From the NCBI GenBank assembly GCA_903842595.1, contig CAIMMO010000222.1, positions 1 to 58,555 on the forward strand: a DNA stretch of 58,555 nt, read 5' to 3'. The notes beneath the pieces are model-generated. The model made no database searches, had not been told where the DNA came from, and worked only from the letters and a program-made list of their open reading frames with translations. Shown here piece after piece: positions 32,989 to 58,555 of the stretch. This stretch comes from an uncultured Alphaproteobacteria bacterium. GTDB taxonomy: Bacteria > Pseudomonadota > Alphaproteobacteria > Caulobacterales > Hyphomonadaceae. The first letter of the stretch is position 1. Each line of letters begins with the position of its first letter. The position numbers were made by a program, and so were the translations under genes.

Positions 32989-33491
32989 GTCGGAGGTACA
33001 GGCGGGGTTGCCGGAGCCAGCTGGTCATCGATCGCCGATTTCTTCGGCTCCGGCCAGTCGCGATCGACGCCCACGCAGTCGCGGGTGAATATGCCATCCA
33101 CCTCATCGACCATGCCCTTGTCGGCGGTCGAGGCGATCTCCCAGTCCATCTGGCAGGCGCGCGTCGCAAAGCTGCGGCTACAGACTGCCATGGGCTCTGG
33201 GTAATCCTCATGCGCCTCGCCATAGGTGCATTCGAACCCGGCGCCCGTGATCGCGCCGATGGCGTCCGGCCGGCTCATCTTGCTGAGCAGGGCTTTCACC
33301 CCGGCATCCCAGCTGGCGTTCAGATTGGCGCCGTCGCCATACGGCCAGTCATGGGCCGCTTCCAGTGATTTCAGGTTCACCGGGGCGGCAAGCTCGGCGG
33401 CTGCCGGTACAGGCAGGGCCTCGGGCCCCGGGCCTGAGGCCGGAGAGCAGGCGGCTGATGCCAGGACAAAGACAGACAAGACGCGGATCAT
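32985..33491 (-). CDS. Small lipoprotein of unknown function
   Basis: A 168-aa protein with a short signal sequence ending in a lipobox-like ASAAC (Cys at about residue 15), then a Pro/Ala-rich stretch and a small domain with four cysteines ([28 protein letters not shown]). The even Cys number suggests two disulfides in the periplasm. I do not recognise the family. It overlaps gatB tail to tail by 4 bp and is divergent from queA with 91 bp between starts. Confidence 0.75.
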
Positions 33492-33582
33492 GATGCGGGC
33501 CTCCCGGATGCACCCTACCACAAATCCCGGCTTATCCGCGGCGGGCTGGCGCCGGACCGCGTTCCCCGCTATGCGCCCGGCC

Positions 33583-34638
33583 ATGAAGCTGTCGGACTTC
33601 GATTTCCACCTGCCCGAGGAGCTGATCGCCCTCCGCCCGGCCAATCCCCGCGATTCCGCGCGGCTGCTGGTCGTACGTGGACGCGACGGGAAACTCGAGG
33701 ATCGCAGTGTCCGCGATCTCCCGGACCTGCTGAAATCTGGCGACATCCTCGTCGCCAACGACACAAAGGTCATCCGCGCCGCCTTGCTCGGCCATCGCCC
33801 GTCACGCGGCGAGGGCGCTGATATAGTGGTCGAGGTGAATCTCAACTCACGCCTGTCTCCCGACAGCTGGTCCGCCTTCGCTCGTCCTGGAAAACGCTTG
33901 AAGGAAGGCGACACGATCGTCTTTGCCAATGGCCTCGCGGCCCGCGTCGCGACCAAGTCGGAAGCCGAAGTACATCTCGCGTTCAATCGCTCCAGCACAG
34001 ATCTCGACGCGGCCATCGAAGCCGCGGGCAATATGCCGATCCCGCCCTACATCGCTTCAAAGCGCGCAGCAGATGCGAGCGATACGAGCGACTACCAGAC
34101 ACTCTTCGCCGACAGGTCAGGCTCGGTAGCGGCGCCGACTGCCGGCTTGCACTTCACGCCTAATCTTCTTGCCCGCCTCCAGGCAGAAGGGGTCCAACTG
34201 ACCAACGTCACACTCCACGTCAACGCGGGTACATTCCTGCCCGTGAAAGTCGACGACATCAGCGAACACCGCATGCACGCTGAACACGCCGAACTTTCAC
34301 CGGAAGCGAGCAGCTCCATTGTCTCCGCGCGCGCGGCGGGCGGACGTTGCATTCCCATCGGCACGACTGCCTTGCGTACGCTCGAAAGCGCAGCTGTATC
34401 CGGCGAGCTGAAGCCCATGAACGCCGCCACCTCCATCTTCATCACGCCCGGTTATCGCTTCCGCGTCGCCAATGGCTTGATAACCAACTTCCACCTTCCG
34501 AAATCCACGCTCTTCATGCTCGTTAGCGCAATGATGGGGCTCGACGTCATGAAGCGTGCCTATGCCCACGCGGTGGACGAGCGATATCGCTTCTTCTCCT
34601 ATGGCGATGCGTGCCTGTTGCTCCCCGGTGAAGACTGA
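33583..34638 (+). CDS. queA: S-adenosylmethionine:tRNA ribosyltransferase-isomerase
   Basis: Builds the epoxyqueuosine ring on preQ1-modified tRNA. The 351-aa protein opens [29 protein letters not shown] and includes [12 protein letters not shown], the PTAGLHFTP block near 185, [13 protein letters not shown] and [17 protein letters not shown] 33583 matches the usual N-terminus; the frame is open further left into the divergent lipoprotein gene. tgt follows with a 1-bp overlap, so the queA-tgt pair is translationally coupled. Confidence 0.97.
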
Positions 34639-35765
34639 TGGCCGAGTTTCCGTTTCACGTCGCCGCATCTGACGGCGACGCTCGCACCGGTCGCCTCGTC
34701 ACCCCGCGTGGCGATATCCCCACGCCCGCCTTCATGCCCGTCGGCACCGCCGGCACGGTCAAGGCGATGTTCCTCGATGATGTCCGCTCCACCGGCACGG
34801 ACATCATCCTTGGCAACACCTACCACCTGATGCTGCGCCCCAGCGCCGAACGCGTGGCGAGGCTTGGTGGCCTTCACCGCTTCATGGGCTGGAGTCATCC
34901 GATCCTCACGGACAGCGGGGGCTTCCAGGTCTTCTCGCTGTCCGACCTGCGCAAGATGAAGGAGGAGGGCGTCGAATTCCGCTCGCACATCGACGGGTCG
35001 TCGCACTTCCTCTCGCCCGAACGCTCGATCGAGATCCAGTCGGACCTGCTTGGTTCCGACATCGCCATGCAGCTCGATGAATGCGTTGCCAATCCCTGTG
35101 AGCGCGCACCGGCAAGAGCCGCCATGCTTCTCTCTGCCCGCTGGGGCGAACGCTCGAAAGTGTATTTCGGCCAGCGGGACCGACAGGCTCTCTTCGGTAT
35201 CGTGCAGGGCTCTACCTACGCCGATCTGCGCACCGAGAGTGCTCACCGCGTCGTGGAAACCGGTTTCGACGGCTACGCCATCGGCGGCCTCGCAGTTGGG
35301 GAAGGGCACGAAGCCATGTGCGACACGATCAGCCTCACTGCGCCGCTGCTGCCCCAGCATCGCCCGCGCTATCTGATGGGAGTCGGCAAGCCGATCGACA
35401 TTCTCGAAGCCGTCGCGCGCGGTATAGATATGTTCGACTGCGTTCTACCCACACGCTCAGGCCGTCACGGACAGGCATGGACCTGGGATGGTCCGATCAA
35501 TCTGAAGAACGCCAAGTGGGCCGAGGACGACACGCCGATCGATGTAACTTCGGCCTGTCCCGCCAGCCGGGGCTATTCGAAGGCCTACCTGAACCACCTC
35601 TTCAAGGCCGGCGAGTATCTCGGCCCTATGCTGCTGTCCTGGCACAACATCGCGTTTTTCCAAGCGATGATGGCGGCGATGCGCAGTGCAATCGCCGAAG
35701 GCCGTTTCGCCGCGTTCCGCGCAGACATGCGCGGCCGCTGGAGCGCGAAAGATCAGCCCGGTTGA
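34638..35765 (+). CDS. tgt: tRNA-guanine transglycosylase (zinc-site Cys partly missing)
   Basis: Exchanges G34 for preQ1 in GUN-anticodon tRNAs. The 375-aa TIM-barrel protein has [18 protein letters not shown] (catalytic Asp near 93), [12 protein letters not shown] and [13 protein letters not shown] (second catalytic Asp near 263). The usual CxCxxC zinc block reads SACPAS, so only one of the three cysteines remains, although the following His (SWHN) is kept. I recall similar loss in rhizobial enzymes, so this may be a lineage trait rather than inactivation. It is coupled to queA and overlaps the convergent lipoprotein gene by 13 bp. Confidence 0.95.
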
Positions 35766-36467: not shown

Positions 36468-36615
<148 letters not shown>

Positions 36616-36679: not shown

Positions 36680-37450
36680 ATGGGGCATGTCCGGCTCGGC
36701 AACCTGCCGCACTCAAAGCGATGGGAAGAGGTCGTCGCCCAACTCGGCGCCGGGTTCGATGCCGCCGCTATTGCCGCCGCCGCCGGCCACGCCGCCGAAA
36801 CCCAGCTTGTGCGTGGCAGCGCCGACCCCGCCTTCCAGCGCGCCTTCTGGTTGCTGACACAGATCCCGCTCGCCGCCCGCGGACCTGACTTTGCCGCCGA
36901 CCTCGCCCGCCTCGGCATCACCGTTCCCGCACAGCCAGGCCTGCTCGACGTGGTAGCCGGCCTCACCACCGCGCTCGACAACAGCGTCAGGGTCTCAGGC
37001 AGACGATCCGATTTCGGCGAAATGGCGCAGCTCGCCGCCGCAGAAACGCTCGCCGACCTCGCTGGCCGCGAGCTGCCCTCCCTGTTCGGCGCCAGTCCCG
37101 CCGATGCAAAGCGCGCCATCGGGCGATATGCCTCGGGCCAGGAGTTCAGCCGCCTCGCCCGTTCGTTCTTCGCACGTCTGCTCCAGCGCAGCCTCGACTA
37201 TTATCTCAGCCGCGAACTGAACCGACATGTCGGCGTCCGGTTTGCCAACGACCGAGCCCGCGCCGCCTTTGACGAGGGCCTGCGCCGCCACTGCCATGAG
37301 ACGACTCGGATCATCGGGGAGTTTGCCGGCGGCTGGTATGGCAAGCGCGTCTACCAGGGGCCAGGGATCCGCCAGGCCGACATCGAGGACTTCGCCGGCG
37401 TCGCATTCCGAAAACTTCGCGCAGAACTGGTGAAGCGTCGCGATGCCTGA
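36680..37450 (+). CDS. Unknown helical protein coupled to QueC-like gene
   Basis: A 256-aa soluble protein without signal peptide or recognisable catalytic motif. It is strongly helical and Ala/Arg-rich. Notable blocks are HVRLGNLPHSKRW at the N-terminus, LTQIPLAARGPDF near 54, FGEMAQLAAAETL near 113, AIGRYASGQEFSRLARSFFARLL near 148 and EFAGGWYGKRVYQG near 213. It begins 64 bp inside the left repeat and overlaps the QueC-like gene by 8 bp, so the two are expressed together. Its place ahead of a QueC-like protein recalls QatB of the Qat anti-phage system, but I cannot show homology. Confidence 0.85.
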   Translation: MGHVRLGNLPHSKRWEEVVAQLGAGFDAAAIAAAAGHAAETQLVRGSADPAFQRAFWLLTQIPLAARGPDFAADLARLGITVPAQPGLLDVVAGLTTALDNSVRVSGRRSDFGEMAQLAAAETLADLAGRELPSLFGASPADAKRAIGRYASGQEFSRLARSFFARLLQRSLDYYLSRELNRHVGVRFANDRARAAFDEGLRRHCHETTRIIGEFAGGWYGKRVYQGPGIRQADIEDFAGVAFRKLRAELVKRRDA

Positions 37451-39266
37451 GCGCGTCACCACCGTGCTGTGTAGAGGCGCTGCGGGGCAACCGGGCCGCC
37501 AGAAACACACGCTGCATTTCAATCTGGCCGGCCCCCAGGCCAATCCCGTCCTGCGCCTCGAGCACATTTCGCGGCTCGCCGCTGGCAACCTGTCCGATAC
37601 GCTGATCGATCTCCTCGAGATCGCAGCCTACGTCTATGCGGCGGACGCATCGGTTAATAGGGGCGGGACGACCGACCCCGAGATGGGGAAACACTGGCGG
37701 CGGAACTTCGAATTTGTGATCCCGGTGCGCAATCCGGACCTGTGGCGCTCGGCCCCGGTCATGACCGCGCTGACCGAGACACTCGGCTTTCTGTCCGACG
37801 ACGACTACTCATTCCGGTTTGACCCTATCCTCAGCCGTGACGGCGTCGAACAGTATTTCGAATTTGGCGATGATGCGGGCCAGGCCTTCAGGCCCGATGT
37901 CGCAATCCTGTTCTCCGGCGGGCTGGACTCTCTCTCGGGCGCCGTCGACATCCTTGCCGGGTCGGACCGCTCCGTCGTCCTTGTCAGCCATCGCTCGGCC
38001 ACCAAGATCACCAGCGTCCAGAACGATCTTGTCGAACAGCTCCAGGACCGTTTCGGCGCGCATCGCGTGAAGCACGTGCCGGTGCTGGCGACCCTTAAGG
38101 ATGGCCAGACGAAGGAGACGACGCACCGCAGCCGCTCCTTCCTGTTTGCGGCGCTCGGCGCCGCAACTGCGCAGCTGTTCGGTCTCGATGACATCTTCTT
38201 CTTCGAGAATGGGGTCGTCAGTCTCAACTTGCCTCCCGCCAGCCAGGTTGTCGGCGCCCGCGCCACAAGGACGACCCACCCGCAGGTGCTCGCAGGTCTC
38301 CGCCGGCTGCTGACCGCGATCACCGGGCATCGCTTTGGCGTGGAGAACCCGTTCATCTGGAAGACCAAGACCGAAGTGACAGCGGTTCTCGCCGCTCACG
38401 GCCAGGCGGACCTCATCCCATGGACGCGCAGCTGCACTCGCGTCCATGAGATGACGCGCCTGCATACTCATTGCGGGCGCTGCTCCCAGTGCCTCGACCG
38501 CCGCTTCGGCATCCTTGCAGCGGGACTGGACCGTTACGACCCTGCCGAGAGCTACGGCACGGACCTGTTCACGGGCGAACGACCCGCCGGGCCGGACCGG
38601 GAAATGGCGCTGGCCTATGTCCGCTCGGCGACCGCGATCAGGGACATGCCGGATGCCGGATTCTTCGCCAGGTTCGGGGAGACCAGCCGCGTCATCGGCT
38701 GTTTCGAGGAAACCGCCAACGTGACCGGCGAGCGGATCTTCGACATGCACCAGCGTCATGCCCGCAGCGTGTGTGATGCATTCGATGCTGGCGTCGGCCG
38801 GTATGCATCCCAGCTGCGCGAGGGGGTTCTGGATGCGGCCTGCCTGCTGCGCCTTGTGGCGTCCGGCGATCTGATCGGAGAAGCGGATGCAGGCGAGCAG
38901 GACTTGCCGCGCGTCGAGCTGGTGATTGACCGCTCGCTCAAGACGGTCGCTGTCGGTGGATGGGGCGAGCTCAAGGGTGTGTCAGCAAGGCTGATCATCG
39001 CGCTGTCGCAGGCAATCACGCATCCTCCCGCTCAAGGCGGGCCAATTGATGCATCCTTTGTCAAATCTGGTGTTTTGGCGGAGCAGACCGGTGCCCCGTC
39101 TGGCGAGGCCCTGCGTCGACAAATCCAGAGGTGCCGGGAGGCAATCACGGAGCTGGCCCGCGACGCAGGCGCGCCCCCGCCCGAGCCGGGCGACATCGTC
39201 GAGAACCTGCCATGGCATGGGTACCGGCTGAATCCCGATCGGGTCAGCGTCACCTTCGCGGAGTGA
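37443..39266 (+). CDS. QueC-like PP-loop ATPase with extra N- and C-terminal domains
   Basis: A 607-aa protein, far longer than QueC (about 230 aa). Residues 1-150 form an extra N-terminal domain (LLEIAAYVYAADA, FEFVIPVRNPDLW, GFLSDDDYSFRF). The PP-loop FSGGLDSLSGAVD is near residue 157, LVSHRSATK near 180, and the QueC-type zinc cysteines lie in a Cys followed by HCGRCSQCLDRR (about 332-350). Residues about 500-607 resemble a winged helix ending WHGYRLNPDRVSV. It overlaps the upstream unknown gene by 8 bp. QueC-like proteins also occur in Qat and in type IV CBASS, so a defence or macromolecule-modification role is more likely than queuosine synthesis; this is inference. Confidence 0.88.
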   Translation: MPERVTTVLCRGAAGQPGRQKHTLHFNLAGPQANPVLRLEHISRLAAGNLSDTLIDLLEIAAYVYAADASVNRGGTTDPEMGKHWRRNFEFVIPVRNPDLWRSAPVMTALTETLGFLSDDDYSFRFDPILSRDGVEQYFEFGDDAGQAFRPDVAILFSGGLDSLSGAVDILAGSDRSVVLVSHRSATKITSVQNDLVEQLQDRFGAHRVKHVPVLATLKDGQTKETTHRSRSFLFAALGAATAQLFGLDDIFFFENGVVSLNLPPASQVVGARATRTTHPQVLAGLRRLLTAITGHRFGVENPFIWKTKTEVTAVLAAHGQADLIPWTRSCTRVHEMTRLHTHCGRCSQCLDRRFGILAAGLDRYDPAESYGTDLFTGERPAGPDREMALAYVRSATAIRDMPDAGFFARFGETSRVIGCFEETANVTGERIFDMHQRHARSVCDAFDAGVGRYASQLREGVLDAACLLRLVASGDLIGEADAGEQDLPRVELVIDRSLKTVAVGGWGELKGVSARLIIALSQAITHPPAQGGPIDASFVKSGVLAEQTGAPSGEALRRQIQRCREAITELARDAGAPPPEPGDIVENLPWHGYRLNPDRVSVTFAE

Positions 39267-42374: not shown

Positions 42375-42968
42375 CGCCCTCACGCCGGACGGAGCGCCCC
42401 GTTCGTGCACTGGGCAGACAGTGGCGCGTCCAAGAATGAACAGTCGCATTGGAGCGACGAGCGAACGCGCTGCAAATTCGGTCCACGAATTTTCAGCCAA
42501 GCGCGGCGATTGCGGCTTACCACCACCGCCGGATTTCAGCTGACGGATGGCGGTTCCTGCGGCTACACGACGAATGGCCGTAAGGGGCCCCAGTGCGGCC
42601 GTAGGTAACGTGAGCCCCGACTGTCCGGAGTCGGGGGGTCTTCCAGCCATTAGTCATGCCGCGAGTTTCGGAGGCTGTGAAACGGCACCGGAAGATGGCC
42701 CCCTTGCTTGATGAGAAATGGGACGCGTAGCGCGCCGATCAGCAGCCGAGCGCCTCTCGTGTTCATACCCTGATGTCACGTCTCGCTCTTCGATTGTCAC
42801 ATGTCGCATCCGGAATTTCGGAAAACCGGCAACGCGTCGGAGTGCCAGCGTCACGAGTTTCTCTTCCGTTGTCCACAGACTGCCCCGCCCCGCGCTGGAA
42901 TGATCGGCAGCGCAGGCACGCGAATTATCACGCCCTGCAGCGTAACGAACAGCAGCGGGGCCACGATC
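42375..42968. other. Long non-coding stretch ahead of the replication module
   Basis: 594 bp with no convincing gene on either strand. It contains a strong hairpin (42615-42636) and, closer to the regulator gene, two TGTCAC copies 21 bp apart (42774 and 42795). It probably holds the control region and perhaps the replication origin of the island, but no iteron array is visible. Confidence 0.35.
42615..42636. terminator. Perfect 8-bp GC-rich hairpin
   Basis: CCCCGACT/AGTCGGGG with loop GTCCGG, followed by GGTCTTCC. It could be a terminator or another structured element upstream of the replication module. There is no clear T-run, so function is uncertain. Confidence 0.35.
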
Positions 42969-43181
42969 GTGCATCTCAACCAGAAATCTCTCGCCGAACG
43001 CTGGGACCTGTCGCCGCGTACGCTTGAGCAATGGCGCTGGCAGGGGCGCGGTCCCGTCTACCTCAAGATCCACAATCACGTCGTCTACCGCCTTATAGAT
43101 ATCGAGGCATTCGAGGCAGCGCACCTTCACGCCAACACGAGTGGACCCCTCCCGGACATGGAGGATGAGGATGCGCGCTGA
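42969..43181 (+). CDS. AlpA/excisionase-like helix-turn-helix protein
   Basis: A 70-aa MerR-like helix-turn-helix protein. HLNQKSLAERWDLSPRTLEQW forms the DNA-binding unit, followed by WQGRGPVYLKIHNHVVYRLIDIEAFE, the typical wing and closing helix of AlpA-type regulators. I chose GTG 42969, which begins exactly at the domain; the frame is open upstream but adds no family-like sequence. Such proteins control integrase or excision in P4-like elements. It overlaps the primase-helicase start by 11 bp. Confidence 0.8.
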   Translation: MHLNQKSLAERWDLSPRTLEQWRWQGRGPVYLKIHNHVVYRLIDIEAFEAAHLHANTSGPLPDMEDEDAR

Positions 43182-45765
43182 AGGCACGGGGCCAACGACC
43201 TTGGCTGAACCGCGGACAGTTTTCGCAACCGAGCAGCCGGAAGCCGGCAAAGCAGGTGAAGGCGGTGAATTGCACATCACGAATGTCGAATTCATCGCAG
43301 CGGTCTTTTCCAGCGTTCCAGAGGGCGCCTTTGCGGCCGTCTCATCAAAGGAGGGCGACCCTGAAGTGGGCGGCTGGATAGCCCGTCGTGCCGATCTCAC
43401 AGCTGCGGGTCTTTCCTCGCAGGCCAACAACTATGTCGGGTGCTCCAGTTTTTATCCTGGCGACGACGGCTCGTTCAGGGCGCGGAAAGCCCAATTTGCT
43501 GCCTGCCATTTCCTGATGCTCGACGATCTGGGAAGCAAGGCGCCTCTGGATCGTCTGGCAGGCTTTGAGTTGTCGTGGTTGATCGAGACAAGCCCTGGCA
43601 ATCATCAGGGTGGGATCATCCTCGCAGAACCGCTCATCGAGGGGGCGATGGCAGTACGCCTGCTGAATGCGGTGATCGATGCGGGCCTGTGCGATGCGGG
43701 TGCGTCAGGGCCGCTGAACCGCTGGGCTCGGCTGCCGGGAGCGATAAACGGCAAGCGGAGACATACCGATATAACGGGTGCGCCCTTTGCGTGCCGACTT
43801 GTCCAGTGGCGACCCGAAAAGCGCTACACGCCAAGCCAGATTGTGGACCATCTGCAGCTGGAAATGGGGCCGGCCGGCAGGCCGAAGAAACTCGCGAAAC
43901 GGTCTGCACCGCCGAGCAATTCTTCGCACAACAACGGGAATGTCGCCGACGATGTCCTGACCCCGAAGGCGGCGGAGAACCCTGTTGTTGCCGCGCTCAA
44001 GGCACGGGGGCTCTACAAGACGCCGCTGGGCTCGGGCAGACATGATGTGACCTGTCCCTGGGTGCACGAGCACACCGACAGCAAGGATACCGGCGCCGCG
44101 TACTTTGAACCCGATGAGCTCTATCCGGTGGGGGGCTTTTGTTGCCTGCATTCTCACCGCGACAAGTATCACATTCAGGCGCTGCTTGAGTTTCTGGGTG
44201 TACTCAGCCTGGAGGCGCGGCACAAACCGCTGATCCGCGTGGTCGCCGGGGATCTGCACCGGGTCGTGGACGCGGCGGAACTGGAATTGGCGAACCGGGC
44301 TCGCCACTATCAGTCAGGTGGCTTGATTGTCTCGGTCTCAGCCGACCCCAGTTGCGGCGATCCATCAATCCTTCCCACCAGCCTGCCAGCCCTGACACGT
44401 GAAATGTCGGTGGCCGCAACATGGGAAAAATACGACGGGCGCGCGGAAGACTGGGTCCGCTGTGATCCGCCCGCGCGGCATGCCGGCATCCTGTTCGACG
44501 CGCAAAAATATCGCTATCTGCCACCGCTGGTCGGACTGGCGCGCCAACCCTATTTTCGGGAGACGGACGGTGAGCTGATCACGCAGCCAGGCTACGACAT
44601 GGCGGAACGGCGCTTTGGCGTGTTCGATGCGCGGCAGTATGTCATTCCTGACCCGACGCCCGAGGCTGCAGGGGCCGCGCTCAGCCTGATCGAAGACCTG
44701 CTGACTGAGTTTCACTTCGTGGCGCCGACCGACAAGGCTGCCGCGCTCGCGGCGATCTTCACGGCAGTCGTGCGTCCGACGCTGGCGCATGCGCCAGCGT
44801 TTCACGTCCGCGCGCCGGTGTTCGGGAGCGGCAAGACCTATCTTTGCGAGTTGATTGGCGCCTTCGCCGGGCCTGGCGCAAACGCCAAGGTGAGTTATCC
44901 GACGACCTCAGAGGAAGCGACGAAGGTCATTCTGTCGTTGTTGCTCACCAGTCCTGCGGTGATCGAGTTTGATGACATGGACACCGACTGGATCCCGCAC
45001 GGCGTCATCAAGCGTATGTTGACGGCGGAGTTTATCACGGACCGGATCCTGGGCGTCAGCAAGACGGCTACGGTAAGTACCCGCACCTTGTTTCTTGGGT
45101 CAGGAAACAATGTGGGTCCGTTACGGGATCTGCTGCGGCGTGTTCTTACCATCCACATTGACCCGCGCTGTGCGACACCCGCAACGATTTCGTACAGGCG
45201 CTTTCCGCTCGACAAGGTTCGGTCTCGTCGTAGTGATTATGTGGCGGCGGTACTGACGATTGTTCAGGCATGGCGCAGGGCGGGCTCGCCTCGCGCCGAA
45301 GCGGACAGCATCGTTACCTTCGGTGGCGCCTGGTCGGACTATTGTCGATACCCCCTTATGTGGCTCGGGCATCCCGACCCCGCGACCAGTTTGCTGGATC
45401 AGGTTCGTCACGATCCTGACGGCAATGCTCTGGCCGGACTGCTGTACGAATGGCGCGCCGCATTTGGCTCAATCCCGACCACGGTGCGCAAGGCAGTCGA
45501 GACGGCGAATCGAGGCAACACGAACTTGCTCGATGCCATGCGTGAGTTTCCGGTTGAGGAACGTGGGGAGATCAACCGCTCAAAGCTGGGCTGGCTGCTC
45601 AGGAAGAACGCCAACCGGATCGTCGGGGGACTCGAGTTCCAGCAAGGAGAAGCCGACGGGCGTACGGCATGGCAGGTGGTCGTCGTCAGAACACCGCCTT
45701 CACCGCCTTCACCGCCTTCCGCCCAACCGGTCGCAAAAGATGTCACGCCGGGGTCGTGTAGATGA
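43171..45765 (+). CDS. Primase-helicase replication protein
   Basis: An 864-aa fusion. Residues about 100-200 look like an AEP/RepB-type primase (CHFLMLDDLGSK near 111, ETSPGNHQGGI near 136, RWARLPGAINGK near 182). A Cys/His region follows at about 293-328 (TCPWVHEH to CCLHSHRD). Residues about 500-720 form a P-loop helicase-like domain with GSGKTYL near 551 and EFDDMDTDW near 597. ATG 43171 has GGAGG six bases upstream; ATG 43165 and GTG 43141 are alternatives. It probably replicates the excised element. It is coupled to the next gene by a 4-bp ATGA overlap. Confidence 0.85.
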   Translation: MRAEGTGPTTLAEPRTVFATEQPEAGKAGEGGELHITNVEFIAAVFSSVPEGAFAAVSSKEGDPEVGGWIARRADLTAAGLSSQANNYVGCSSFYPGDDGSFRARKAQFAACHFLMLDDLGSKAPLDRLAGFELSWLIETSPGNHQGGIILAEPLIEGAMAVRLLNAVIDAGLCDAGASGPLNRWARLPGAINGKRRHTDITGAPFACRLVQWRPEKRYTPSQIVDHLQLEMGPAGRPKKLAKRSAPPSNSSHNNGNVADDVLTPKAAENPVVAALKARGLYKTPLGSGRHDVTCPWVHEHTDSKDTGAAYFEPDELYPVGGFCCLHSHRDKYHIQALLEFLGVLSLEARHKPLIRVVAGDLHRVVDAAELELANRARHYQSGGLIVSVSADPSCGDPSILPTSLPALTREMSVAATWEKYDGRAEDWVRCDPPARHAGILFDAQKYRYLPPLVGLARQPYFRETDGELITQPGYDMAERRFGVFDARQYVIPDPTPEAAGAALSLIEDLLTEFHFVAPTDKAAALAAIFTAVVRPTLAHAPAFHVRAPVFGSGKTYLCELIGAFAGPGANAKVSYPTTSEEATKVILSLLLTSPAVIEFDDMDTDWIPHGVIKRMLTAEFITDRILGVSKTATVSTRTLFLGSGNNVGPLRDLLRRVLTIHIDPRCATPATISYRRFPLDKVRSRRSDYVAAVLTIVQAWRRAGSPRAEADSIVTFGGAWSDYCRYPLMWLGHPDPATSLLDQVRHDPDGNALAGLLYEWRAAFGSIPTTVRKAVETANRGNTNLLDAMREFPVEERGEINRSKLGWLLRKNANRIVGGLEFQQGEADGRTAWQVVVVRTPPSPPSPPSAQPVAKDVTPGSCR

Positions 45766-47608: not shown

Positions 47609-47731
47609 ATGGACAAGCGAAACCTCACCGAACGCGATATCTGCAATACGTTGGTCCTGTCGGTTGCCATGCGCGATGGCTGGGCCGATGGCGAAGGCGT
47701 CGTGCGAACAAGGCTCAAGGGAATTAGTTGA
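47609..47731 (+). CDS. 40-residue ORF resembling the N-terminus of a type I HsdR
   Basis: The product begins [12 protein letters not shown] and continues to a GW pair near residue 24. This resembles the start of EcoEI-type HsdR proteins (M-K-LxERDIC...GW). It stops after 40 residues, and its TGA overlaps the hsdM ATG (TGATG). It could be a relic of an older restriction gene or a leader peptide coupled to hsdM. The hsdR at 52663 has a different N-terminus, so it is not a duplicate of that gene. Confidence 0.45.
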
Positions 47732-49346
47732 TGCGCTGGGTCGCCCCCACTGAAAAAGACACGGCCTCAGCCTCGCTCGAAAAGCGCCTGTGGGACGCTG
47801 CCGACCAGTTCCGCGCCAATTCCGGCCTCAAGGCGCAGGAGTATTCGGGGCCAATCCTCGGCCTGATCTTCCTGCGCTTCGCGGAGGTGCGCTTTGCTAT
47901 CCAGCGCACGAAGCTCGAACAGGCCGGCGCATCATCCCGGCGTGGCAGTCGCGTGGATGAGCCCGCCGCCTATCACGCGGACAACGTGCTTTACCTCGCC
48001 TCCGAGGCGCGCTTCGATTACCTGCTGGCCCTGCCCGAGGCGTCCGACATCGGCGCCAAGGTCAACGCGGCGATGCGCGAGATCGAGAAGCACAACCAGC
48101 AACTTGCCGGCGTGCTCCCCAAGACCTTCAACCTCTTCACCAGCACCCTGCTGAAAGAGCTCCTCAAGAAGATCTCCGAAATCCCGGCCACGCTCGACTT
48201 CGACGCTTTCGGGCGCATCTACGAATACTTCCTCGGCGAGTTCGCCATGAGCGAGGGGCAGGGTGGGGGCGAGTTCTATACGCCGGCCAGCATCGTCAAA
48301 TTGCTCACCGAAGTTATCGAACCTTATCACGGACGCATCCTCGACCCCGCATGCGGCTCGGGTGGCATGTTCGTTCAATCTGCGCGCTTTGTGGCTGAGC
48401 ACCACAAGAACCCCGCCGCCGAGCTTGCCATCTGCGGCGTTGAGAAGACCGACGAGACCGGGCGCCTCTGCCGCCTGAACCTCGCCGTGCACGGGCTGGA
48501 GGGCGACATTCGTCATGGCGGCCACGTAAACAGCTATTTCGACGACCCCCATGCCGCCACCGGCGCGTTCGACTTCGTGCTCGCCAATCCGCCTTTCAAC
48601 GTCAACGCGGTGGACAAGGAGCGGCTCAAGGACATGGTCGGCTCCGGCCGGCGCTTTCCCTTCGGCTTGCCACGTACCGACAACGCCAACTATCTGTGGA
48701 TTCAGCTCTTCTATTCGGCGCTAAACGACAAGGGCCGCGCTGGGTTCGTCATGGCCAACTCGGCTTCCGACGCCCGCAGTTCCGAACAGGAGTTGCGGCA
48801 GAAGCTGATCGAGGCGCGCGCTGTGGACGTGATGGTCGCCGTCGGCCCCAACATGTTTTACACGGTCACACTCCCTTGTACGCTGTGGTTCTTCGACAGG
48901 GGCAAGGCAAAAACTCGGCGCGCTGACACCGTGCTCTTCATCGACGCACGTCACATTTATCGGCAGGTAGACAAGTCTCACCGTGAGTGGACGTCTGCGC
49001 AGCTTGGCTTCGTTGCCAACCTGGTGCGCTTGTACCGTGATGAACCGCCTGACCTGACCGTGGGCGGTCAGGAGACGGCGGCCAAGCTTGCGGAGGTTTT
49101 TGGCAAGCAACTCACCTATGCCGACGTGCCCGGCCTGTGCAAATCGGCGACGCTAGCCGAGATCGAGGCACAAGGCTGGTCGTTGAACCCAGGACGTTAT
49201 GTGGGCTTGGCGCCGGGCGAGGAGGTCAGCGATGAGGACTTTAAGGCGCAGCTTGAAACGCTGAACGAGGAACTGGAGGCCCTGAATGCCCGAGCGCGGA
49301 CGCTGGAGCAGACCATCGCCGCGAGTGTGGCGGGGATTCTTGGAGC

Positions 49347-49350
<4 letters not shown>
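47731..49350 (+). CDS. hsdM: Type I restriction-modification DNA methyltransferase subunit
   Basis: A 539-aa N6-adenine methyltransferase. The N-terminal helical HsdM_N domain ([13 protein letters not shown]) is followed by [15 protein letters not shown] near 180, the SAM motif [16 protein letters not shown] near 204 and the catalytic LANPPFN near 285. The C-terminal end is a coiled helix (about 500-535) typical of contact with HsdS. ATG 47731 overlaps the stop of the preceding mini-ORF. hsdS starts with a 4-bp overlap, so HsdM and HsdS are made together. Confidence 0.96.
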
Positions 49351-50569
<1,219 letters not shown>

Positions 50570-50573
<4 letters not shown>

Positions 50574-52660
50574 ACGCCCAGGACCTCCCGCTGACCCAGC
50601 TTCTCGACGGCGCCAAGCAGTTCATCGTGCCTATCTTCCAGCGCGACTACTCCTGGCGCACCAAGCATTGTCAACAGCTGTGGAATGATATCCTACGGGT
50701 CGGCATCGACCCGGCAGCCCGTGCGCACTTTCTAGGTTCGGTGGTCTATATCGCCGCCGAGGACAACCAGGCCGCAATCCCCCGCTGGCTGTTGATTGAC
50801 GGGCAACAACGTCTGACCACCGTGACCTTGCTGCTCACCGCGCTGCGCGATCGACTGAAGTCCCACACCTCAGACAATGAAGCTCTGCCCTCGGCCGAGG
50901 AAGTTGAAGACCGCTTCCTCCGCAATCGCCACGGTAAAGGCGAGCGTCGCAACAAGGTGATGTTGCGCCGGGCGGACAACGATGCGCTATCGACGCTACT
51001 TGCCGGACAGGAAGTCCCAGAGGCTGCTGCCGAGACGGTGCGGGAGAACTATACCTTTTTTCAGGAGCGGCTCGCCGAGGCCAACCTAGCGCAGGTCTAT
51101 GCCGGCATCTCCAAGCTTGTGATCGTAGACGTTAGTCTGACGCGCGGGCACGACGACCCGCAGATGATTTTCGAGAGCCTCAACTCTACGGGGCTGGATC
51201 TGACCCAGGCCGACCTAATCCGCAACTTCGTGTTGATGCGGCTCGACGATGAATTGCAGACGCGGCTGTACGAAGACTACTGGCGGCCAATCGAGCTGGA
51301 CTTCGGCAACCGTTACCGCAGTGAGTTCGACAAGTTCTGCCGCGATTTTCTGGTCCTGAAGCTGAGGCCGAGCAAGCAGCTGCGAGCTGACGAGATCTAC
51401 TACCACTTCCGCAACTACTTCCATGCTGAGTCCGCCACCCGCTCAGTAGAAGACGTGTTGGCCGAACTCCGACGCTTTGCGGGCTACTATGTGCGATTCA
51501 GCCTTGGCCGCGAGCAAGATACACAGTTAGCGGCCGCATCTGGGCGGTTGCGTGCGCAGGTGGAGGTGGCCTCGCCTCTGATGCTACGTCTGCATGATGC
51601 CCATGCCCGCACTGGCGCCTTCGATAGCCGCGCCTTCAAGGAGGCTATCGAGTTGCTTGAGAGCTACGTTTTCCGGCGCTCGGCCTGCGACATGCAGACC
51701 CGCAGTTTGTATCAGATCTTCGCTGGCATCGCTTACAAGATCCGCGATGCTGAACCACTTCAAAGCCTGAAAGTGGCGCTTTACCGGGGCGGCAGAAAGC
51801 GGCGCTTCCCCTCCGACACGGAGTTCCGCGACGCGCTCGAGACACGCGACGTGTATGCGATGCGCTCCTGCGCCTATCTCCTCGATCGACTGGAGAACGA
51901 CAGCAAGGAGAAGATCGACACCAGCACCTTCACCATCGAGCACGTGATGCCTCAGAACGAGGATCTCTCGGCTGCCTGGCGCGAGATGCTTGGGGTGGAG
52001 TGGAAACTGACCCAGGAGACTTGGCTGCATCGCTTGGGTAATCTCACCCTGACAGGCTACAATTCCGAATATAGCGACCGTGCCTTCGATGAGAAGAAGT
52101 CGATGACCAAAGGCTTCAACGACAGCCCGCTGCGGTTGAATCGCTTCATCCGCGAGCAGGTCAGTTGGACGGCAGCGGAGATTGAGGCTCGCGGTAAGGC
52201 CCTTGCTCAACAGGCAGTGAAGGTCTGGCCAGTCCTTTTGGTGGACATGGTTGAAGTACGCGCGGCTGAGCTGGAAGAGCACCGCGCAGCAGCTGCTCAG
52301 CACAGCATCGAGACAGTAGGTTTCGATGCGGAAGCGCGTACACTTTTCGACGCGATCCGGCCTCACCTGCTCACACTCGGTGACGACGTGGTTGAACTCT
52401 GCGGCGCAAAGAGTGTGGTCTATCGGGTCTTCGACCACTTCGTAGAGGTGCTGCCGCGCAGTCGTCGCATTCTGCTTTTGGCCAACATCGATTTCGATGA
52501 GCTCGACGACCCTTCTGGGCAGGCGGAAGACGCGTCGGACTTCGCTTTCATTACCAACGCCAGCGAAGGGGGAGGCGTGATTTTTTCGCTGCGGAATTTG
52601 GAGGAGCTCCCAGCCGCCATGCATATCGTAAAGCAGGCCTATGAGCGGGTGACGGGGTAA
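50570..52660 (+). CDS. DUF262/DUF1524 protein (GmrSD-like nuclease) within the hsd operon
   Basis: A 696-aa protein. The N-terminal DUF262 (ParB/Srx-like) domain has VPIFQRDYSW near residue 18 and LIDGQQRLTTVTLLL near 76. The C-terminal DUF1524 His-Me finger region has TIEHVMPQNEDL near 456 and HRLGNLTLTGYNSEYSDRAF near 486. GmrSD-type proteins with this pair cleave modified DNA as type IV restriction enzymes. It overlaps hsdS by 4 bp and ends two bases before hsdR. ATG 50570 is chosen; the frame is open further left inside hsdS. Confidence 0.9.
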
Positions 52661-52662
52661 CC

Positions 52663-55600
52663 GTGTCAAACGCCTATACCGAAGACCAACTCGTCGAGCA
52701 GCCCGCTATCGGGCTTTTTGCGGAGCTCGCCTGGCAGACGGTGTCGGCGCTGGACGAAACCTTCGGCCCTGGTGGCACGCTCGGACGCGAAACCAAGGGG
52801 GAGGCGGTACTGCTGGAGCGCCTGCGGGCCACTCTCACGAAGCTAAACGCTGGCCTGCCTGCCGAGGCAATCCAGACCGCCATGGACGAACTTGCCCGTG
52901 ACCGCTCTGCGATGAGCCTGGAGGCCGCCAACCGTGAGGTCTACCGGCTGCTCAAGGAGGGCATCCCGGTCTCGGTGCCTGACCAAGAACAAGGCGGGCA
53001 GAAAACCGAGCGCCTGCGCGCGGTGGATTGGGAGAACCCGGAACAGAACGACTTCCTGCTCGTCAGCCAGTTCAGCGTGGTCGGCAACCTCTACACCTGC
53101 CGGCCCGATCTAGTAGGCTTCGTCAACGGTCTGCCTTGGGTGGTGATTGAACTCAAGAAGCCTGGCGTGCCGGCGCGGGCAGCCTTCGACGAGAACCTCA
53201 CGCACTACAAGCAACAGATCCCGCAGCTCTTCTGGTTCAACGCCCTGCTGCTCGCCAGCAATGGCGCCGACAGCCGCGTTGGTTCACTAACCGCTGACTG
53301 GGAGCGCTTCTTCGAGTGGAAGCGCATCGCGCGTGAGGATGAGCCGCGCCGCGTATCACTGGAGGTGATGTTGCGCGGTACGTGCGACCGCTCCCGCTTG
53401 CTCGACCTCGTCGAGAACTTCACGCTGTTCTCCGAGCACAAAGCCGGGCTCGTGAAGATCCTCGGCCAGAACCACCAGTTCATCGGCGTCAACAACGCCA
53501 TCGCCTCAATGCTGGAGGCCCGCAAGCTGGGCCACGGACGCGGAGGCGTCTTCTGGCAGACGCAGGGCAGCGGCAAGAGCTTCTCGATGGTCTTCTTTGC
53601 ACAGAAGGTGCTGCGCAAGCTAGCGGGGAACTGGACCTTTGTTGTCGTGACCGACAGGGTTGAACTGGACGAACAGATCGCCAAGACGTTCAAGACGGTC
53701 GGGGCTGTCAACGACGCCAATCCAAGCCACGCGACCAGCGGTGCGCACCTGCGCGAACTCCTGAAAGGAAATAGCCGCTACGTCTTCACCCTGGTGCACA
53801 AGTTCCAGACGTCGGAGCCCCTCACCGACCGCTCCGACGTGATCGTGCTGACCGACGAGGCGCACCGCAGCCAGTACGACACGCTGGCGCTCAACATGCG
53901 CGCTGCGCTGCCCAAGGCTATGTTCCTGGCGTTTACTGGGACGCCGCTGATCGCGGGGGAGGAGCGCACCAAAGAGGTCTTTGGCGACTATGTATCGATC
54001 TACGACTTCCAGCAGTCGGTGGAGGACGGCGCGACGGTGCCGCTGTTCTACGAGAACCGCACGCCAGAGTTGCAACTGGTCAACCCTGACCTCAACGACG
54101 ACATCTACAGCCTGATTGAGGATGCCGAACTCGACTCTGAACAGGAGGATAAGCTCGAAAAGGCGCTGGGGCGGCAGTACCATCTCATTACCCGCGACGA
54201 CCGGCTGGAGACAGTAGCGCAGGACATCGTGCGGCACTTCCTCGGGCGTGGGTTCGTGGGCAAGGCGATGGTGGTGTCCATCGACAAGGCCACCGCGCTG
54301 CGGATGCACGACAAGGTCAAGGCGCACTGGGCGGTCGAGACGGCGCGGGCACAGGCCGAGCTAGGCGAGCTGGACCGTCAACCGCGTGGGGGCGAGATGA
54401 CGCCTGAACAGGCGCGGAGGGACCTGCGCAAGGCTGAACTGAAACAGCGGCTGGACGTGCTGATCACGACCGACATGGCAGTCATCGTCTCACCCGGCCA
54501 GAACGAGATCGAGCAGATGAAGAAGCTCGGTATCGACATTGAGCCGCACCGCAAGCGGATGAACGACTCGCAGCCCGGCCTCGATGAGAAGTTCAAGGAT
54601 ACGCAAGACCCGTTGCGGCTGGTGTTCGTCTGCGCGATGTGGCTGACAGGCTTCGATGCGCCGAGTTGCTCGACGGTTTATCTCGACAAGCCGATGCGTA
54701 ACCACACGCTGATGCAGACCATCGCTCGCGCCAACCGTGTCTTCCCGGGCAAGCACAGCGGCATGATCGTGGACTATGCTAACGTCTTTGCCTCGCTCGA
54801 AAAGGCGCTGGCCATCTATGGCGCGGGGAAGGGTGGTGCCAATCCAGTCAAGAACAAGGCCGAGCTTGTCGTCGTGCTGCGCGAAGCAGTGGCGGCGGCG
54901 ACGGCATTCTGCGCCGAGCACGGCGTCGATCTTCCGGCAATGGAAGCGCTGCCGCTGGGTGGCATGGAACGGTTGTCTGCCGTCGCGCATGCAATCAACG
55001 CGCTGATCTCTCCGGAGGCTTTGCGACGAGAGTTCTTCGGGCATGAGAAGTTCGTCAGCACGCTTTATCGCGCGGTGAAGCCTGACCCGGCAGCGCTGGA
55101 GTTCTCGATGCGCGCGGCGGGTATTGCCACGCTGGCCGCTGCTATCCGGGCCAAGCTGAGCCCCAATCCGCCGGACATCGCTACGATCCTAAATCAGATC
55201 TCGGGGCTGCTCGACGAGTCGATCACCGGCCTGACGATCCGCCAAGACGGGCCGCCTGCTATCGATCTCTCAAAGATCAACTTCGAGGCCTTGGCGCAGC
55301 GCTTCAAGGGGTCCGAGCACAAGAACACTGACCTTGAAGCGCTCAAGGCAGCGATCAAGGCCAGGCTGGAAAAGCTGGTGAGTTTGAACCGCACCCGCAC
55401 CGACTTCTCGGAGAAATTCGAGGCGCTTATCGAGAGCTACAACAACGGCAGCCGGAGCATCGAACAGCTCTTTCAGGAACTGCTCAAGCTATCAAACAGC
55501 CTAGACGACGAGCAGGAACGCCACGTCCGCGAGAACCTGAGCGAAGAAGAACTCGTGATCTTCGACATCCTGACGCGTCCTGCGCCGGAGTTGAGTGCGG

Positions 55601-55842
55601 ACGAGCGAGCGGAAGTGAAGAGGGTTGCCAAGGATCTGCTCCTACGCCTCAAGACCCTGCTGGTGTTGAACTGGCGCCAGAAAGTGGCCGCGCGCTCGTC
55701 GCTGAAGCAGGCAATTGAAGACACACTCGATGGTGGACTTCCACGGGCCTACACACCGGAGATTTACGGAGCAAAATGTTCGGCGCTTTTTGAGCATGTG
55801 TACGAGTCCTATCCGGACAAGGGGGTCGGTGTTTATGCCTGA
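52663..55842 (+). CDS. hsdR: Type I restriction enzyme R subunit
   Basis: A 1059-aa restriction and translocation subunit, GTG start. The PD-(D/E)xK nuclease domain shows DLVGFVNGLPWVVIELKK (about 149-166). The helicase part has TQGSGKSFSM near 299 (Walker A), VLTDEAHRSQYD near 397 (motif II), LAFTGTPLI near 424, and QTIARANRVFPGKHSG near 685 (motif VI). It appears full length and intact. Together with hsdM and hsdS it forms a complete type I system. The gene begins two bases after the DUF262 gene. Confidence 0.96.
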   Translation: MSNAYTEDQLVEQPAIGLFAELAWQTVSALDETFGPGGTLGRETKGEAVLLERLRATLTKLNAGLPAEAIQTAMDELARDRSAMSLEAANREVYRLLKEGIPVSVPDQEQGGQKTERLRAVDWENPEQNDFLLVSQFSVVGNLYTCRPDLVGFVNGLPWVVIELKKPGVPARAAFDENLTHYKQQIPQLFWFNALLLASNGADSRVGSLTADWERFFEWKRIAREDEPRRVSLEVMLRGTCDRSRLLDLVENFTLFSEHKAGLVKILGQNHQFIGVNNAIASMLEARKLGHGRGGVFWQTQGSGKSFSMVFFAQKVLRKLAGNWTFVVVTDRVELDEQIAKTFKTVGAVNDANPSHATSGAHLRELLKGNSRYVFTLVHKFQTSEPLTDRSDVIVLTDEAHRSQYDTLALNMRAALPKAMFLAFTGTPLIAGEERTKEVFGDYVSIYDFQQSVEDGATVPLFYENRTPELQLVNPDLNDDIYSLIEDAELDSEQEDKLEKALGRQYHLITRDDRLETVAQDIVRHFLGRGFVGKAMVVSIDKATALRMHDKVKAHWAVETARAQAELGELDRQPRGGEMTPEQARRDLRKAELKQRLDVLITTDMAVIVSPGQNEIEQMKKLGIDIEPHRKRMNDSQPGLDEKFKDTQDPLRLVFVCAMWLTGFDAPSCSTVYLDKPMRNHTLMQTIARANRVFPGKHSGMIVDYANVFASLEKALAIYGAGKGGANPVKNKAELVVVLREAVAAATAFCAEHGVDLPAMEALPLGGMERLSAVAHAINALISPEALRREFFGHEKFVSTLYRAVKPDPAALEFSMRAAGIATLAAAIRAKLSPNPPDIATILNQISGLLDESITGLTIRQDGPPAIDLSKINFEALAQRFKGSEHKNTDLEALKAAIKARLEKLVSLNRTRTDFSEKFEALIESYNNGSRSIEQLFQELLKLSNSLDDEQERHVRENLSEEELVIFDILTRPAPELSADERAEVKRVAKDLLLRLKTLLVLNWRQKVAARSSLKQAIEDTLDGGLPRAYTPEIYGAKCSALFEHVYESYPDKGVGVYA

Positions 55843-57059: not shown

Positions 57060-58250
57060 TCATGGCTCCAGCGCTGGAGGCCGGGATAGCAATTGTACCA
57101 GGTCTCCGAACTGATTGGCTGCCGCCCTCAGCGGGCTGTCAGCCAGATGTGCATATCTCTGGGTCGTCAGCGGACTTGTGTGTCCCAGCAACCGACCGAC
57201 AATTTCCAGGCTCAGCCCGTTCGATACCAGATAGGACGCGTGCGTGTGTCGGTTATCGTGACGACGATAGTCTTCAAGCTCGGCCTTTTCGAGAACGTCG
57301 CGCCAGAAGCGCTTGAGGTCCTGCAGGGGCTTGCCCTTGGCATCACCGGGAAAGAGATAGACCGCTCGCGGCGCAGCCGATTGCCTCATGTCCGTGAGCA
57401 TAGCGAGCGTGGGACCAGACAAAGGGAGGTACTCGGTTCGCTTCTGCTTGGTGTGATGGGAGGGCTTGATCCAGACACCGCGTTCGAAGTCGAAGTCGCG
57501 CCAGCGGGCTTGCAGCACCTCGCCAATGCGGGCGCCGGTCAGGATCTGCAGGCGGATGGCAGTTGCGGCGCGCTGATTAGGATGCGCGTTCAATACGCCG
57601 ATCAGACGCGACAGCTCGTCTTCCGACAGCCAGCGCTCGCGGCGCGCCTCGGCAAAGCGCTGGAGACCTTTGGCAGGATTGTCAGGGCGCCAGCCCCAGC
57701 TGATCGCCAGCGAGAACATCTTTGACAGGAGAGAGAGGACGCGATTGGCCTGATAGGGGGTCGCGCGCAGCCTGTTGTGGAGTTGCTCGATGTCGCGACG
57801 ACCGACGGCCTGAACCTTCCTGGTCCCGATTGCCGGCAGGATGATCCGGGCAATCATGCCGCGATCATTCGCGACGCTGCGGGGTCGCTTCTTGGGAATG
57901 GCGTGGCGCGCCAGATAGTCGTCGGCAAGATCGCTGATAGTCGGCGCGGCGCGATAGGCCTTGTCGCGCTGGGCGGGATCTTCGCCGCGAATGACCTCGG
58001 ACAGAAGGAGGCGGGCATGATCCCGCGCCTGGTGCAGGGAGAGCAGGGGGCCGAGCTGTCCCAGGGTCTTGCGGCGCGACGCGCCCGTGCGGCGATTGCG
58101 GTACTGGATCAGCGCGCTTTTGACACCGGTCGGTTTCACGCGGATGCCGAAACCCGGAATGCCGTCGTCCCACGCAATGTATTCGGTCTTCGCGGGCTTG
58201 AGGCGATCGACAGCGGTCTTGGTGAGTTTCTCGCTCGGCATGGTGGACAC
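57060..58250 (-). CDS. int: Tyrosine site-specific integrase
   Basis: Recombines the element with the tRNA-Lys site. The 396-aa protein has an N-terminal DUF4102-like arm-binding part (WDDGIPGFGIRVKPTG), a core-binding SAM-like domain (about 105-200) and a catalytic domain. The catalytic residues appear in TGARIGEVL (Arg), HDNRHTHAS (His-x-x-Arg), LLGHTSPLTTQRYAHL (His and nucleophile Tyr). It starts at GTG 58250 or ATG 58241. Three CGGGTAAGC arm-like sites lie 26-55 bp upstream, and the right repeat begins 187 bp upstream, so it reads inward from the element end. Confidence 0.95.
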   Translation of the reverse strand: MSTMPSEKLTKTAVDRLKPAKTEYIAWDDGIPGFGIRVKPTGVKSALIQYRNRRTGASRRKTLGQLGPLLSLHQARDHARLLLSEVIRGEDPAQRDKAYRAAPTISDLADDYLARHAIPKKRPRSVANDRGMIARIILPAIGTRKVQAVGRRDIEQLHNRLRATPYQANRVLSLLSKMFSLAISWGWRPDNPAKGLQRFAEARRERWLSEDELSRLIGVLNAHPNQRAATAIRLQILTGARIGEVLQARWRDFDFERGVWIKPSHHTKQKRTEYLPLSGPTLAMLTDMRQSAAPRAVYLFPGDAKGKPLQDLKRFWRDVLEKAELEDYRRHDNRHTHASYLVSNGLSLEIVGRLLGHTSPLTTQRYAHLADSPLRAAANQFGDLVQLLSRPPALEP

Positions 58251-58436: not shown

Positions 58437-58555
58437 GACTTTTAATCAGCGGGTCGCAAGTTCGATTCTTGCCGGGCTCACCAAGTCTTTCAATCACTTG
58501 CCGCTCTGAGCCGCCGCAGCGCGCAAAGCCGGGTAAGCGCCGGGTAAGCTTCCGC
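58437..58555. repeat. Right attachment repeat with partial tRNA-Lys copy (reaches window end)
   Basis: Identical over 119 bp to 36497-36615. Bases 58437-58483 repeat the 3' 47 nt of tRNA-Lys. They lack the 5' half, so this is not a functional tRNA. The identity continues through two CGGGTAAGC copies to the last base of the window, so its true length is unknown. Confidence 0.93.

Follow-up and report, generated by a model that had tools for sequence, protein, structure and literature searches.

A QatBC-like gene pair at the edge of a mobile element

Two overlapping genes, here called B and C, were analysed on a 58,555-nt contig of an uncultured member of the Hyphomonadaceae (CAIMMO010000222.1, positions 1 to 58,555; this whole stretch is referred to as the window). 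Judged by its sequences, the family to which they belong is real and conserved, and at the family level it stands apart from qatABCD, although it is apparently built on the QatBC principle. We consider it probable that B and C constitute a QatBC-type defence complex in which C would tag Gly2 of B with the use of ATP, and in which the pair would control the domain fused to C. The features of the two genes are as follows:

36680–37450, + strand: B, a 256-aa putative substrate or partner with a QatB-like role (from the open reading frame (ORF) list)
37443–39266, + strand: C, a 607-aa QatC-like enzyme with an extra C-terminal domain (from the ORF list, profiles and tree)
36680–36709, + strand: codons of the N-terminal B motif MGHVRLGNLP, with Gly2 as the presumed acceptor after Met removal
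37914–37931, + strand: PP-loop SGGLDS, C residues 158–163
38265–38282, + strand: TRTTHP, C residues 275–280 (from the alignment to 9zee_B)
38433–38492, + strand: zinc-site cysteines C331, C344, C347 and C350 of C (aligned with the QatC cysteines)
38808–39263, + strand: extra C-terminal domain, C residues 456–607, a probable OmpR/PhoB-type winged helix

The coordinates and sizes of both reading frames, their 8-bp overlap, the SGGLDS motif and the QueC-type cysteines are all as claimed in an earlier note on this DNA. A sigma-70 scan over the module gave no promoter-like site ahead of B and a single one 3′ of C; one terminator-like site is located within C.

C is a QatC-like enzyme

C matched the NCBIfam QatC model with 204.6 bits, below the equivalog cut-off of 280 bits, and the PADLOC QatC model with an E value of 1.9e-57 over residues 49–362, confirming the kinship to QatC that had been suspected. 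With the same NCBIfam model six more two-gene C proteins scored 187.6–226.9 bits, and two enzymes of a third type described below 114.0–144.5 bits. A profile of five C proteins matched the solved QatC chains 9vlk (6e-52) and 9zee (3.7e-43), and the homology to QatC extends across C residues ~50–366. The approximately 150 N-terminal residues previously regarded as extra lie mostly inside the QatC match, which begins at residue 49–50, and are normal for QatC. With QueC, the preQ0 synthase, C shares only a weak Pfam match of 24.6 bits, just over the cut-off of 22; its score with the QueC equivalog TIGR00364 was 17.8 bits, far under the cut-off of 150.3, and the window's genome has a separate true QueC of 184.3 bits.

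A maximum-likelihood tree was calculated for the core of 65 sequences (306 columns) comprising 44 two-gene C proteins, 11 QatC and ten third-type enzymes. The two-gene C proteins split from QatC plus the third type with a support of 99, and the QatC and third-type groups obtained a support of 100 each. The sister grouping of the three clades depends on the root; midpoint rooting gives QatC as the sister of C.

Residue conservation was counted on representatives of less than 85% identity with intact frames, 85 for B (set A5) and 83 for C (set A6, from which L073 and L045, the latter with no stop in its contig, were excluded). D56, R73, W85, S158, D162, S163, R231, R276, H279 and P280 are invariant in all 83 distinct intact C proteins, and each of the four zinc cysteines is kept in 83/83. 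Residue F235 is Phe in 57 and Tyr in 26 of them.

The third QueC-like type (L009–L016, L189 and L190) forms a clade of its own. A small partner lies 5′ of the enzyme in 8 of its 10 loci, with none found in L012 and L015; it mostly starts MSDGPxRSLPMxxxW, resembling the LPxxxxW of B, and would expose Ser instead of Gly. The enzyme has S[D/E/N]G[L/M]DS in place of the SGGLDS PP-loop. Near the ligand site, where the exact register is uncertain, six of the ten sequences show Y-x-D (e.g. YPDYR) and eight have Asp. An XRE-type gene stands 3′ of the enzyme in the two annotated plasmid records.

B is kept beside C and begins with a conserved glycine motif

Scans of public contigs with a B seed yielded 62 genome loci and 20 viral-contig loci; with a C seed they yielded 88 viral-contig loci, of which the best 80 were kept (the C-first set). 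Some contigs recur between these sets. B was located 5′ of C in 79 of the 80 C-first loci; the remaining one, L123, starts at the edge of its contig. C lay 3′ of B, in some cases fragmented, in 61 of the 62 genome loci, the exception (L086) having a truncated B. As the pair is kept in relatives, the juxtaposition of B and C is not due to chance. Dropping loci with partial or split genes left 139 pairs, 123 of them distinct. In 118 of the 123 the two genes overlap, usually by 4, 8, 11 or 14 bases; this count favours overlaps, since for C the start closest to the stop codon of B was taken.

In accordance with the earlier statement that it belongs to no known family, window B remained without a match at E values up to 1 in Pfam, NCBIfam, PADLOC and PHROGs. 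NCBIfam, Pfam and PADLOC models each matched at most a few of the 85 B proteins, all weakly, and a B profile searched against the PDB gave chance matches only (best E 0.12). In a profile comparison with hhalign, B residues 72–255 aligned with QatB (56%, E 1.1e-4), vs. 0.2% and E 0.26–0.35 for two unrelated controls, QatA and QatD, a likeness that suggests, short of proof, that B may be homologous to QatB.

The genome scan and one viral scan were seeded partly on the MGH motif, and N-terminal conservation was for this reason counted on the C-first set, where 74 of the 80 loci provided 66 distinct complete B N-termini. All 66 carry Gly2-His3. Their first letter is Met in 63, Leu in two and Val in one, corresponding to ATG, TTG/CTG-type and GTG starts. 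In five more C-first loci B is incomplete, cut by contig ends in L088, L107, L108 and L110 (of which L110 still reads GHVRLG) and by an in-frame stop in L153. The stop in L153 comes just after the MGHSRLG start and may reflect decay or sequencing error. Gly2-His3 is likewise present in 85/85 B proteins of A5, a set for which the motif was part of the seed. No stretch of B is better conserved than its first ten residues (rank 1 of 247 windows), and mean conservation is 0.68 for residues 1–18 and 0.47 for the remainder. According to PMC13279940, Met before Gly is normally removed, so that B would expose Gly2, like QatB and the CBASS CD-NTase.

The same conservation of Gly2-His3 would suit docking as well as modification. 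B might thus stay unmodified and insert its N-terminus as a plug or sensor into the active site of C, with C making or using a small molecule, and the fact that catalysis by QatC is not reconstituted in PMC13279940 fits this possibility. We nevertheless regard it as unlikely, given that the PP-loop catalytic residues and R231 are invariant in C and that the G2D exchange abolishes Qat defence and blocks CBASS deazaguanylation (PMC13279940), an effect in which docking could be disturbed too.

The proposed tag is probably not 7-carboxy-7-deazaguanine

Residues T275 and T277 of C align with T278 and T280 of Pseudomonas aeruginosa QatC (alignment to 9zee_B), which, according to PMC13279940, stand in for the Tyr and Asp of Cap9 and QueC that bind 7-carboxy-7-deazaguanine (CDG). 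Position 275 is Thr in 64 and Ser in 19 of the C proteins, and position 277 is Thr in 77 and Ser in six, giving Thr/Ser in 83/83 at both.

For the host-pathway search 50 of the 62 genome loci were taken, one was dropped and the window's genome was added, resulting in 50 host genomes. Use of CDG would require QueD and QueE in the host. QueC was found over its cut-off in 24/50 and QueD in 35/50 genomes, and neither in 15/50, an absence that may reflect gaps in metagenome-assembled hosts. The QueE model TIGR04508, run on 30 genomes, had no match in 14 of the 15 QueC/QueD-negative hosts and scored 20.4 bits in the other; among 10 QueC-positive genomes nine matched, one of them at 20.5 bits only, and one had no match, which makes this model a weak witness for other QueE types. 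Thirteen of the 15 negative hosts carry an uninterrupted BC pair (it is split in L044 and L058), and eight are RefSeq named strains (L028, L029, L038, L039, L041, L044, L059 and L060). QueD was present in 13/13 hosts of the third type and qat, which all belong to one order and hence provide no test.

Together, the 15 hosts with neither QueC nor QueD and the Thr/Ser at the ligand positions indicate that the tag that C would add is probably other than CDG. That C would use CDG like Cap9, and that B would be deazaguanylated, appears doubtful on the same grounds: the Thr/Ser replace the residues that hold CDG, and 13 pathway-negative hosts, several of them named strains, keep the pair intact. The retained QueC-type PP-loop and zinc site, the N-terminal Gly that B has in common with the Cap9 substrate, and the deazaguanylation proposed as the QatC reaction in PMC13329287 speak for CDG. 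So does the presence of QueC, QueD and QueE in the window's own genome, a single host that does not by itself decide the ligand.

The C-terminal tail of C is exchanged between relatives

Beyond the position equivalent to window residue 456, C proteins have tails of 119–286 aa that start about where QatC ends. The 83 tails fall into groups without mutual BLAST similarity: 43 are window-like, 19 have a longer tail, seven are nuclease-like and five are short winged helices; the smaller groups are one of three, two of two (one of these protease-like) and two singles. Among the tails scanned with Pfam, DpnII-MboI scored over the cut-off in 3/3 of the nuclease type (two of the seven, and one from Leptospira), Trypsin_2 in 2/2 of the protease type and Trans_reg_C in the one scanned member of the short winged-helix group. 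The PD...ExK motif is present in all eight nuclease-type tails (the seven and that of Leptospira). By these matches, the C tail is interchangeable: some relatives have a winged-helix-like domain there, others a DpnII-MboI nuclease or a trypsin-like protease.

A profile built from 35 of the 43 tails of the window type aligned over its full length with the Trans_reg_C group (33%, E 4.5e-4), vs. 23 linker columns only for the nuclease group (14%) and 25 columns only for the group of 19 (68%). Its best PDB match was TcpP (E 0.007), a protein with an OmpR-type winged helix; sigma factors came next, with E values from 0.1 upwards. On the basis of the Trans_reg_C alignment and the TcpP match, the window tail is probably a winged helix of the OmpR/PhoB type. 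The C-terminal region that had been called winged-helix-like is a real addition of about 150 aa, its fold being probable only.

Relation to qatABCD and type IV CBASS

With qatABCD the pair shares the QatC PP-loop, the Thr-x-Thr (or Ser) and the zinc residues of C, the position of B directly 5′ of C, Gly at position 2 and the weak profile likeness to QatB. It differs in that C falls below the NCBIfam QatC cut-off, stands on its own side of the tree and bears a tail beyond the QatC end, and in that B reaches no QatB threshold and starts MGHxRLGxLP, not MGTS. Profiles of QatA, QatB and QatD built from seven qat loci matched the canonical qat loci only and, within the DNA examined, none of the two-gene loci (L003, L004, L019, L020 and L023–L182). 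In the window, no KAP ATPase, TatD or CD-NTase domain was detected in the ten larger island and flanking ORFs scanned with Pfam, smaller ORFs lying outside the scan; for these ten, the absence of the Qat ATPase and TatD nuclease and of the CD-NTase that had been noticed before is borne out. A degraded or reduced qat locus was rejected as an explanation, as C separates in the tree, its own B family is conserved beside it and the tails extend beyond the QatC end. Of the earlier proposal of a compact defence or protein-modification system related to a reduced Qat, the QatC kinship, the lack of QatA and QatD and the location on mobile DNA were borne out, the reduction of a qat operon was not, and a defence function is ascribed by homology.

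In published work, qatA is found beside 34.3% of QatC-cluster genes (PMC13329287). QatB binds QatC in a 1:1 complex, and the two proteins alone give protection vs. some phages, with the PP-loop and the two threonines of QatC and Gly2 of QatB being essential (PMC13279940). Type IV CBASS also combines a QueC-type enzyme, Cap9, with a partner that has an N-terminal glycine, and the N-terminal conjugation chemistry is presumably shared. The pair differs from it as no CD-NTase domain and no Cap10 gene were seen among the ten ORFs scanned, B had no match, and C has Thr/Ser at the QatC-equivalent positions where Cap9 has its Tyr/Asp contacts to CDG. C is also about three times as long as Cap9, for which PMC13329287 gives a median of ~185 residues.

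No published description of the two-gene BC family was found in a search that left subscription papers, some preprints, supplements and the two concurrent QatBC structure papers cited in PMC13279940 outside, nor a paper joining QatC with a winged helix or QueC with DpnII-MboI. The main text of PMC13329287, as far as available, has no mention of "trypsin", "two-gene" or words beginning "nuclease".

BC is often cargo of mobile elements and prophages

Genome records with BC come from Alpha-, Beta- and Deltaproteobacteria, Nitrospirae, Dehalococcoidia, Akkermansia, Opitutaceae, Planctomycetia, Ignavibacteria, Gemmatimonadaceae, Bacteroidales and Bacillota. In an even draw of 398 genomes from the window's phylum, the B profile matched three, the window's own included. 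On a plasmid of Leptospira noguchii, B and C measure 260 and 621 aa and lie next to an IS982 gene.

The flanks of the 85 representative loci contained a homologue of one of three integrases in 56 (of the L095 integrase in 41) and a homologue of the window helix-turn-helix (HTH) gene near BC in 29, with at least one of the integrase, HTH and primase homologues in 62. The window primase was rejected as a regular companion of BC, its homologues occurring in 2/85 loci. For ten proteins of four prophage-like loci searched against PHROGs, integrases were found in L094, L095 and L114 (of the serine type, judged from DNA-invertase matches), Sak4 and an exonuclease in L095 and L024, and a single-strand binding protein (SSB), a helicase and a sigma factor in L024. 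From the integrase and HTH counts and the PHROGs matches, BC is often mobile-element or prophage cargo. INPHARED phage records gave no match at 1e-5 to window C and none to the prophage B of L114. The C of L114 had two weak matches (27.8% over 39%) in the unannotated Listeria phage records OR848142 and OR846725.

Further loci showed altered or unusual arrangements. On a Rhodobacteraceae plasmid (L020, 5866–7278) a C gene without its 5′ part and without B lies beside an IS3 transposase gene. The C frame is broken into two or three pieces in L031, L034, L044, L178 and L181, perhaps through decay or sequencing error. In L023 (4–3351) B and C are directly preceded by a gene for a 1115-aa protein with a PLD-like start, which we take to be helicase-like and which is possibly another defence gene.

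The location on mobile DNA also allows a reading in which BC regulates the element, i.e. its excision, replication or lysogeny, through the C winged helix and has no part in defence. The commonest tail is DNA-binding-like (the 43/83 grouped with the window), the element-type HTH and integrase genes recur near BC at the frequencies given above, and the loci checked have prophage neighbours. We find this decidedly improbable, as relatives bear nuclease and protease tails, the closest characterised relatives are defence genes, the Leptospira copy resides on a plasmid beside an IS982 gene and the window's own element holds other restriction genes.

The element of the window

B and C are the first genes of an element of ~21.9 kb integrated at tRNA-Lys, whose other features are:

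36468–36543, + strand: tRNA-Lys (TTT), integration site of the element (ARAGORN)
36497–36560, + strand: left attachment repeat, the tRNA-Lys 3′ part plus 17 bp (64/64 bp identical to 58437–58500)
42801–43181, + strand: small element gene, HTH/excisionase-like (label read off the sequence)
43141–45765, + strand: RepB-like primase of the element (PF16793)
47728–55842, + strand: type I restriction-modification (R-M) genes hsdM, hsdS and hsdR and a GmrSD-type gene
57060–58250, − strand: tyrosine integrase of the element, at the end opposite B and C (PF00589, 96.1 bits)
58437–58555, + strand: right attachment repeat, running on into the left-end sequence of the element up to the contig end (119 bp identical to 36497–36615)

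The GmrSD-type restriction gene lies between hsdS and hsdR (50471–52660). With the 64-bp tRNA-Lys repeat, the integrase, and the type I R-M and GmrSD genes, the placement of the module at the edge of a mobile element with restriction genes, as first described, is confirmed. We interpret the 119-bp repeat at the right end as a trace, left in the assembly, of an excised circle or a tandem copy. GC content is 0.58–0.65 in the element and 0.63–0.64 in the preceding flank, ranges so alike that the element has no strong GC signal.

In the nearest same-genus genome (G302; flank 96% identical) homology to the window stops at 36545, 2 bp after the tRNA ends; from there it is 134 bp to the start of B. 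The stretches inspected in G302 and two other genomes of the genus (16.4, 12.8 and 12.5 kb) contained no BC, and a C match was absent from four same-genus genomes. Just 5′ of the QueC-like C, queA- and tgt-like genes (33226–35765; labels from reading the translations) are present. A functional tie to them was rejected, since in the closest genome of the genus the flank is conserved as far as the tRNA and the module is missing; the neighbourhood is apparently a coincidence of integration at tRNA-Lys. The end of the tgt-like gene falls in the chromosomal flank shared with G302.

Proposed mechanism and its meaning

The sequences themselves show the linked gene pair, the conservation of the catalytic residues and of Gly2, and the exchange of tails. 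Complex formation, modification of the B N-terminus and anti-phage defence are proposed here by homology to QatBC and Cap9. BC would be a two-protein immune complex borne by mobile elements and prophages. After removal of Met, Gly2 of B would enter the QueC-like active site of C, which would adenylate a ligand with ATP and couple a small carboxylate to this residue. Modified or docked, B would then hold the C tail poised. Infection may free the tail, which in the window is probably a winged helix with DNA as its presumed target and in relatives a nuclease or protease; both the infection trigger and the role of the winged helix are conjectural.

Several observations weigh against the preferred reading of BC as a QatBC-type defence complex. 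Any homology of B to QatB is weak: the QatB profile at E 1e-3 matches no B, NF041924 (QatB) matches 2/85 B proteins with a best E of 0.023, no PADLOC model matches more than 2/85 (best E 0.0012), and an N-terminal alignment of B with the third-type partner, 38 columns long, scores as high as that with QatB (54%, E 1.3e-4). The start motif differs from MGTS, and the reaction of QatC itself is not reconstituted, as mentioned above. Three of ten tails scanned (window, L046 and L065) had no Pfam match, and that of L096, from the group of 19, had sub-threshold matches only. Finally, cargo of a mobile element could serve the element and not defence.

A broader proposal, which we offer tentatively and as a possibility short of an even chance, is that BC represents a separate multi-phylum two-gene immune family. 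In it a QatC-like ligase would modify the N-terminal Gly of its partner with a ligand that is not 7-deazaguanine, and the tag would gate a swappable fused effector (winged helix, PD-(D/E)XK nuclease or trypsin-like protease).

How QatC acts on QatB and how phage is stopped is posed as an open question in PMC13279940 (2026). The BC family would be a natural minimal version of QatBC, with no A or D gene seen and a fixed N-terminal acceptor. In some relatives an enzyme domain is fused to the ligase, which makes the output testable, as DNA cleavage or proteolysis may serve as a read-out of B modification. The hosts with no detectable QueC, QueD or QueE predict a non-CDG ligand, and this, if true, would narrow the search for the substrate of the QatC branch.

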